From the NCBI GenBank assembly GCA_029775855.1, contig JARVJZ010000001.1, forward strand, positions 248,001 to 312,000: a DNA stretch of 64,000 nt, written 5' to 3'. The first letter of the stretch is position 1. Every line of letters starts with the position of its first letter. A program made the translations under genes and the position numbers. This DNA is from Nitrososphaeria archaeon. Lineage in GTDB: Archaea; Thermoproteota; Nitrososphaeria; Nitrososphaerales; JAAOZN01. Positions 2,411 through 10,054 of the stretch are shown here, piece after piece. Below the pieces are notes generated by a model, which saw nothing but the letters and a program-made list of their open reading frames with translations, was not told where the DNA came from and did no database searches.

Positions 2411-2968
2411 TTAAGCCCTCCACCAATCAAAAGTGATAAACTCAACACGCTTTTGAACCACATCCGCAACAGCCAAGATGAACTGCTTCCTCACAGTAGT
2501 AGCTAACCTACCTGATAGAATAATTCTGGTAGCAGTGAGATCTTGGGAAGGTTTGACGACTTCAACAAGATAAGGTGCGTGGTCTATTCCGGGACCATGC
2601 TCATAGACTGCAAAATCACAACCAAACTTGATTCCAGGGCTTACAACTAACCCCGCATCTCTAAGATTTCTATACACCAGATACTTCTCTGGGAATTCAA
2701 TGTACTCAGACTCACAGATCTTCTTTAACATCTTTATACCAACCTTACTATGTAAAGGAGATCGCCTTATTGTAATCCTACCGCGCTCCAAAAGATAGTA
2801 TCCCTCTATTAAATCGAGAACCAAAGGTGCGTTGAATTCAGCGTTTTTAGGCTTAGGTATACCTAACGGCTTACCGTAGAAGCCTTCTTTAAAAAGGGAC
2901 CTTGCATCCTCAATGCTCCAGATGATTATTCTGTTTCCGACAAGCTCTGCGGGTATAGCAGCGCTCAA
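2411..2968 (-). CDS. endA: tRNA-splicing endonuclease EndA
   Basis: Cuts both exon-intron borders of precursor tRNAs at bulge-helix-bulge motifs. The 185-residue length is that of the single-domain archaeal enzyme. The catalytic triad is visible: Tyr122 in FAVYEHGPG, His130 in IDHAPYLV and Lys161 in TTVRKQFILAV. The family motif KFGCDFAVY precedes Tyr122. The GPG insertion after the tyrosine resembles crenarchaeal EndA subunits, which work with a second subunit and accept relaxed motifs. No second subunit is in this window. Translation starts at TTG 2966-2968, 11 nt after the PhoU-like gene. The enzyme is directly relevant to the three-intron tRNA at 8791-8926. Confidence 0.93.
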   Translation of the reverse strand: MSAAIPAELVGNRIIIWSIEDARSLFKEGFYGKPLGIPKPKNAEFNAPLVLDLIEGYYLLERGRITIRRSPLHSKVGIKMLKKICESEYIEFPEKYLVYRNLRDAGLVVSPGIKFGCDFAVYEHGPGIDHAPYLVEVVKPSQDLTATRIILSGRLATTVRKQFILAVADVVQKRVEFITFDWWRA

Positions 2969-8642: not shown

Positions 8643-8790
8643 GGCTAACCTGAGTTCTCATAAGCTTTATGAAGTTTATAAATACATCGCTGACTTCAGC
8701 GTTAGATGATCCTAAAACCATTTTTAAGCACTCCAGTTTTATTAATACATAGAAAAGTTATTTTAGATGCTCTACAACCTACGATGTCTG

Positions 8791-8926
8791 GGGACCGTAG
8801 CTCAGCTTGGTTAGCAGGCTTGGGCCAAGGAGCGTTCGAGAGCGAAAATGCTCGGCGACGCTGATAACCGAATTGGCGTGCAACATGCCACGGCAGAGGT
8901 CCGCGGTTCAAATCCGCGCGGTCCCA
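8791..8926 (+). tRNA. tRNA-Ile(GAU) with three predicted introns
   Basis: The ends give a complete tRNA: acceptor GGGACCG pairs with CGGTCCC, and the T arm is CGCGG-TTCAAAT-CCGCG. Between them, removing three segments restores a standard cloverleaf. Intron 1 is about 8815-8830 (16 nt) inside the D stem and restores GCTC/GAGC. Intron 2 is about 8839-8859 (21 nt) between positions 30 and 31 and restores TTCGG/CCGAA. Intron 3 is about 8873-8896 (24 nt) near 43/44 and restores a 5-nt variable loop. Each segment can form its own hairpin (CTTG/CAAG, GAGC/GCTC, GGCGTG/CATGCC). The mature molecule is 75 nt with loop CTGATAA, anticodon GAT. Exact intron borders may shift by 1-2 nt. No intron sits at the canonical 37/38 site. 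Confidence 0.85.
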
Positions 8927-8929
8927 CAT

Positions 8930-10054
8930 TCATATATAGGGCATTTTAGCTAGGGTTTCTGCGCTTATGTGAATTGATTCGTCAAGTCTTAAACCTTCTT
9001 CTATCAACTCTAACACGAGTGCCTTTTCCTCTGGAAACTTGTAGCCTTCATAGTCTTGCTTAAATAGGAAGCTGCCGTCTGCTCGACGCCAAGAGTTCAT
9101 AAAGTGGTCGAAGCACACTCTACTAGTTACGTTAAGTTCGCTTATCATCAATTTAAGCTCCTGTAGCCTCTCGTGCGGAGTTGTCAGCTCAAACTCTCCT
9201 CTCAGATATGCTTCATAGAGCGGTGTTCCTCTGCGTGGTGTAAAAGGTCTTGACCTTATGTAGTCTGGGTTTATCTCGTTTAGGACTCTAGCTGTGTTCT
9301 TAGCATGCTGCAACCAAAATCTTCTACCACCAACGCCAGGCATCCAATATTCTGATAACTCAAAGCCAGCCTTCTTTGAGCGATACCCTGCTTCGATCTG
9401 CTCTTCACTTGTTACACCTTTTTTTATGTATGCTAAAACCTCATCGTCTCCGCTCTCTAAGCCAACATGCAGCCTTGTCAATCCAGCTTGCCTTATCTTG
9501 ATTAAGTCGTCCAGAGGCTTGTGGGCCAATGTTTTAGCCCTTGCATATGATGTAATTCTCACAACTGTAGGGAAGCATCTTTTTATGTGCTGTAATATTT
9601 CGACGAGCTCGTTTGTGCGCATTATCGGGGTGTTTGCATCTTGTAAGAAGACGGTGCGGGCTCCAGCTTCTAGCCAGCGGTAAACCAAAGCGATGTTTTC
9701 ATAGTTTCTCATCTCGTCTGCACTTAGCTCCTCAAAACTCTTCCCATAGAGGAATAGTGGGTCAATTATTCTAGCCACCCAATCCATCCCACCTAGTTTG
9801 TTCGAGAGAGTTGTAAGTAGATCGGCTATAGCCTTCGCTGAATCTATATCTCTCTTCACTTCATCGACACTTCTATACACAAACCTTTTTCCCTTATATG
9901 ATGCACAGAATGTGCAAAAGTTCCAGGGGCAATTTACCGTTGCCCTTATTAAGAGTGAGGCGCTTCCGCCTTCAGAAGGAGGCCTAATGGGGCCTAGATC
10001 AAAGGTGTATTTTTTGAGCTCCTCAACCTCTGGTAAGACCATTCTTGCTATCAA
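8930..10054 (-). CDS. Radical SAM protein
   Basis: A 374-residue radical SAM enzyme of the COG1032-like group. The cluster-binding motif reads CPWNFCTFC, a C-x4-C-x2-C spacing shared with the CPHNxCxFC subgroup. TM-barrel motifs follow: RVTSYARAK-like strands, LTRLHVGLESGDDEVLAYIKKGVT (the HVGLESG core) and GYRSKKAGF. The region from 180 to 260 fits the Elp3/MiaB-type fold. No B12-binding or TRAM domain is visible. Its stop lies 3 nt beyond the convergent tRNA-Ile gene. The reaction is unknown; a biosynthetic or modifying role cannot be specified. Confidence 0.85.
   Translation of the reverse strand: MIARMVLPEVEELKKYTFDLGPIRPPSEGGSASLLIRATVNCPWNFCTFCASYKGKRFVYRSVDEVKRDIDSAKAIADLLTTLSNKLGGMDWVARIIDPLFLYGKSFEELSADEMRNYENIALVYRWLEAGARTVFLQDANTPIMRTNELVEILQHIKRCFPTVVRITSYARAKTLAHKPLDDLIKIRQAGLTRLHVGLESGDDEVLAYIKKGVTSEEQIEAGYRSKKAGFELSEYWMPGVGGRRFWLQHAKNTARVLNEINPDYIRSRPFTPRRGTPLYEAYLRGEFELTTPHERLQELKLMISELNVTSRVCFDHFMNSWRRADGSFLFKQDYEGYKFPEEKALVLELIEEGLRLDESIHISAETLAKMPYI

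Follow-up and report, generated by a model that had tools for sequence, protein, structure and literature searches.

The question raised by this locus is whether a tRNA-Ile(GAU) gene interrupted at three places, none of them the canonical one, is a working gene, and how such a gene compares with those of its relatives. The gene occupies positions 8791-8926 (+) of the window, by which we mean the whole 64,000-nucleotide stretch of DNA that was analysed, and comprises four exons and three introns within a precursor of 136 nt. With a probability of about 95%, in our estimate, this is a functional tRNA-Ile(GAU) gene, the three noncanonical introns of which, all of the bulge-helix-bulge kind, would be removed by a two-subunit splicing endonuclease and a ligase.

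The introns measure 16, 21 and 24 nt and lie at tRNA positions 21/22, 30/31 and 43/44. Exon 1 (8791-8813; tRNA positions 1-21) contains the 5' strands of the acceptor and D stems along with the D loop, and is followed by intron 1 (GCAGGCTTGGGCCAAG, 8814-8829); exon 2 (GAGCGTTCG, 8830-8838) runs from the 3' strand of the D stem through position 30, and is followed by intron 2 (AGAGCGAAAATGCTCGGCGAC, 8839-8859); exon 3 (GCTGATAACCGAA, 8860-8872) covers positions 31-43 including the anticodon GAU, and is followed by intron 3 (TTGGCGTGCAACATGCCACGGCAG, 8873-8896); exon 4 (8897-8926) supplies the variable loop, the T arm, the 3' strand of the acceptor stem and the discriminator A, whereas CCA is not encoded. 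These borders, all on the forward strand, are those found by our solver and supported by relatives. As is characteristic of archaeal pre-tRNA introns, taking out the three segments restores a consensus tRNA: the 75-nt product has a 7-bp acceptor stem (GGGACCG/CGGTCCC), the T arm CGCGG TTCAAAT CCGCG, the D stem GCTC/GAGC, the anticodon stem TTCGG/CCGAA with the loop CTGATAA, and the 5-nt variable loop AGGTC, that is, every element that the initial annotation had ascribed to it. A TATA-like promoter element, TTATTTTA (8758-8765, +), is predicted from the sequence about 25 nt 5' of the mature end and would act in transcription of the gene; the f1 and f4 relatives have an A/T block containing AAAGTTA at a similar upstream distance. 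On the other side, a protein gene (8930-10054, -) stands tail to tail with the tRNA gene, only a few bases separating the two ends; its cysteine motif suggests a radical SAM protein, its relatives include Bathyarchaeota and Deltaproteobacteria MAGs, and domain searches returned no match for it.

The three-intron structure was recovered by a search blind to the answer, which tried every combination of at most three removals and scored each by the cloverleaf together with a bulge-helix-bulge at every border. The best solution, with a score of 30.1, consisted of the same three introns that had been proposed initially, and lies well above the controls, namely, shuffled middles (n=200; mean 13.4, maximum 21.2) and random window segments placed between the same ends (n=200; mean 12.0, maximum 19.0). 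The runner-up, at 28.3, combines a 13-nt third intron with a long variable loop and is at odds with the orthologous genes. Group I or group II self-splicing introns were also considered and rejected, given that the segments are only 16-24 nt long and that no such Rfam family is found in the window at gathering thresholds.

With default settings, neither ARAGORN nor Rfam cmscan detects the gene, as the initial annotation had anticipated for standard gene finders. Such a failure is what one would expect if the locus were a decaying tRNA-Ile pseudogene with random insertions while another copy does the work; however, the exons are intact and identical in the three congeners, where the introns vary in length and in their loops, two families have the insertions at the same sites, and a second intact tRNA-Ile(GAU), which had been named beforehand as grounds for abandoning the three-intron reading, was not found elsewhere in the 98%-complete genome. 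We consider decay very improbable, and take the locus to be a functional interrupted gene.

Comparison with relatives fixes the borders. A search of 100 related genomes with the 136-nt sequence showed the gene with 90-91% identity in two congeners and with 74-75% identity in four genomes of another family, f4. Seven genomes (G000-G002 and G005, G031, G039, G047) have all three introns, at positions that are identical and, as originally claimed, outside 37/38; the mature tRNA is 75 nt in each of the seven, and the introns range in length over 14-21 nt at 21/22, 20-30 nt at 30/31 and 19-24 nt at 43/44. Elsewhere in the order, the same gene is found in other intron states. The 21/22 intron occurs alone, with introns 2 and 3 absent, in G008; a 24-nt 30/31 intron alone in G013; the 43/44 intron alone in G003 and G004; and a 37/38 intron alone in G018, G014, G044 and G050. 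G022 combines a 21/22 intron with a 13-nt insert best read as lying at 37/38, and G006 has a D-arm intron of ambiguous position together with introns at 37/38 and 43/44. The gene is free of introns in G007, G046, G009, G025 and G035, and inserts at the 21/22 and 30/31 junctions are absent from G014, G036, G044, G052, G059, G066 and G007. The exon junctions match the intronless orthologues, and through these and the single-intron forms each junction of the window gene is fixed by comparison; the range of intron states across the order shows, moreover, that each of the three introns is a unit of its own.

The borders were judged against the bulge-helix-bulge motif, with a 4-bp central helix and 3-nt bulges that are each cut between the second and third bases. 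At intron 2 the motif is strict (central helix CGUU/GGCG, 4/4; inner helix GAGCG/UGCUC); it remains so in all seven genomes, with U-A in place of U-G in two relatives. At intron 1, the central helix UGGU/GCCA pairs 4/4, with the outer helix GCU/AGC and a weak inner helix; the central helix is 4/4 in f1 and f7 and 3/4 in f4, with a U-U mismatch, and the inner helix is weak in f1 and 5-6 bp long in f4. Intron 3 has a 3/4 central helix with an A-C mismatch (A-U, hence 4/4, in G002) and an inner helix of 7 bp. At both 21/22 and 30/31, pairing in the central helices is kept through base changes (U-A/U-G). Introns 1 and 3 would be classed as relaxed bulge-helix-bulge types, forms that are tolerated by two-subunit endonucleases (PMC4090602). 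Of the three segments, each of which had earlier been suggested to fold as its own hairpin, introns 2 and 3 do so (5 and 7 bp, respectively), but intron 1 has only about 1-2 inner base pairs in the genus. Central helices can also be paired, with different sequences, at the other 30/31 introns of the genome (tRNA-Met, tRNA-Tyr and tRNA-Pro). As for the exact cut at intron 1, a repeated G in f1 makes cleavage at 21/22 and 22/23 yield the same product; in f4 and f7, the intron starts with A or T, which forces the 21/22 cut there and excludes 22/23. Inspection by hand found no central helix for a 22/23 cut in the window.

Folding of the precursor, proposed in the initial annotation as a check, bore out the motifs in part: that of intron 3 appears in the minimum-energy structure, whereas introns 1 and 2 favour other pairings. 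Without constraint, the whole precursor reaches -62.0 kcal/mol, compared with -43.8 kcal/mol when the proposed motifs are imposed; locally, the minimum is -12.9 versus -2.9 kcal/mol for the motif of intron 1, and -13.5 versus -4.1 kcal/mol for that of intron 2. In G013, the rival pairing around intron 2 contains a mismatch and the proposed motif is intact. These folds bear on another possibility, namely, that only two introns are removed and that the first segment is kept as an enlarged D arm of the mature tRNA, in line with the weakness of its inner helix (the intron is 14-16 nt long within the genus) and with its pairing to the D-arm exon in the minimum-energy structure. Yet orthologues that lack the insert read GGTTAGAGC exactly at the junction, the insert varies between genera not only in length (14-21 nt) but also in sequence, and the inner helix attains 5-6 bp in f4, so that retention of the segment seems hardly credible compared with removal of all three introns.

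The genome also encodes the enzyme that removal of three such introns would call for. The product of 2411-2968 (-) is a tRNA splicing endonuclease, the catalytic alpha-type subunit of 185 aa (PF01974, E=6.9e-28), with the crenarchaeal splicing endonucleases 3p1z, 2cv8 and 3ajv as its closest solved relatives and full-length alignment with 3p1z and 2cv8. Judged by sequence, this protein keeps the Tyr, His and Lys of the active-site motifs, and a second, related PF01974 protein, encoded on contig C1 near 5132, is devoid of the His and Lys motifs. Both subunits of a two-subunit endonuclease are thus present in the genome, a pair that would fit an alpha2beta2 enzyme. About 6 kb separate the gene for the catalytic subunit from the interrupted tRNA gene, a proximity that is probably a coincidence. 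Splicing of the precursor we infer as follows: the locus would be transcribed as the 136-nt precursor, the two-subunit endonuclease would cut each exon-intron border, and a ligase would join the four exons into the 75-nt tRNA. Trans-joined and permuted tRNA genes both occur in archaea with two-subunit endonucleases (PMC3218864), but here all four exons follow one another directly in their normal order over 136 nt, which excludes such an arrangement for practical purposes.

The window gene is one of many interrupted tRNA genes in this genome. The census combined 36 tRNA-like Rfam hits (G000, loci L097-L132), solved in the same way, with the window gene, for a total of 37; the counts, which come from our own solver with manual adjustment where class II variable arms or the unsolved tRNA-Lys(UUU) called for it, derive from an Rfam-based search that misses genes with T-arm introns. 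Introns, at least 35 in all (about 0.95 per gene), interrupt about 19 of the 37 genes; eight genes have two introns and four have three, namely, those for tRNA-Ile(GAU), Ala(GGC), Ser(GGA) and Ser(UGA). Introns lie most often at the canonical 37/38 (11 cases), and next most often at 30/31 (4). The initial view of a multi-intron tRNA of the archaeal kind stands, but three introns can hardly be called uncommon where three further genes of the same genome have them, and the genome itself groups with Nitrososphaerales, not with Thermoproteales. Among 34 introns of the genome, a single pair, in tRNA-Ala(UGC) and tRNA-Arg(CCG), has 9-mers in common, so that nothing indicates that the tRNA-Ile introns were recently copied from one gene to another. 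The tRNA-Lys(UUU) gene (L128, G000:C3:198757), which seems to contain both a 30/31 intron and a T-loop insertion, yielded no solution, as the solver assumes an intact T arm. A second tRNA-Thr(CGU) (L120, G000:C3:77974-78031), in which position 8 is C and the acceptor stem is mismatched, is possibly a decaying copy.

Archaeal tRNAs with multiple introns, up to three, have already been published, and the present gene is a clean example of them, not a new phenomenon. The red alga Cyanidioschyzon merolae has a three-intron tRNA-Ile that is, to our knowledge, unrelated by descent, and Candidatus Caldiarchaeum subterraneum is an archaeon that we take to belong to the same broad class as the present genome. 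In the latter, 13 of 45 tRNA genes contain introns, compared with about 19 of 37 here, and three are multi-intron genes, a feature in common with the present genome, with introns in the D, variable and T arms (PMC3293823). The algal gene, for tRNA-Ile(UAU), likewise specifies an isoleucine tRNA and, with three introns, likewise departs from the usual scheme of a single one, but in a eukaryote, with a different anticodon and with introns in the D, anticodon and T arms (PMC9602550). Closer in kind are the three-intron pre-tRNAs of Pyrobaculum, tRNA-Glu(UUC) of P. calidifontis and tRNA-Pro(UGG) of P. islandicum, which share with the present case three introns in one archaeal gene, borders of the bulge-helix-bulge type and a splicing endonuclease, but are other tRNA species from the Thermoproteales lineage (PMC4390854). 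According to the text of the tRNAscan-SE 2.0 paper, that program models noncanonical introns with iterative intron removal, and 107 such introns are given for Thaumarchaeota, the same phylum-level group; its main text contains no mention that we found of the 21/22, 30/31 and 43/44 set in tRNA-Ile(GAU) (PMC8450103). The highest figures cited there are three introns in one archaeal tRNA gene and, for P. calidifontis, 71 introns in 46 genes, and the intron density of the present genome, about 0.95 per tRNA gene, is close to the 0.84 given in the same text for Thermoproteales (PMC8450103).

The added interest lies in the mosaic of intron states that a single tRNA displays across an order, and in the intron-rich genome around it. 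On balance, we lean towards the view that tRNA introns have undergone a second large expansion in this order, one comparable with that in Thermoproteales, in which the introns of tRNA-Ile(GAU) at 21/22, 30/31, 37/38 and 43/44 form a mosaic of elements that come and go; if so, gain, loss and homology of tRNA introns could be traced within a single gene. The 3' end of the 43/44 intron has the motif CACGG-N-A-A/G in f1 and f4, ACGG-T-AG in G002 and CACGGGAA in f3, which hints that this intron may be old. In the RpoB tree, a sister relationship between f1 and f4 is not clear-cut (supports 85-86), so that common gain with subsequent losses looks the same as independent gain at favoured sites. The series from zero to three introns in related families offers a natural test bed for the gain, retention and loss of tRNA introns, and bears on the tolerance of two-subunit endonucleases for relaxed substrates. 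To simple gene finders, the tRNA set of this uncultured lineage would seem badly incomplete, and genome-quality estimates as well as claims on codon decoding for such genomes must allow for interrupted tRNAs. In G008, an isolated 3' half of tRNA-Ile (positions 30-75; L198, G008:C5:95296-95341) lies about 5 kb from the complete gene and looks like the remnant of an integration site.
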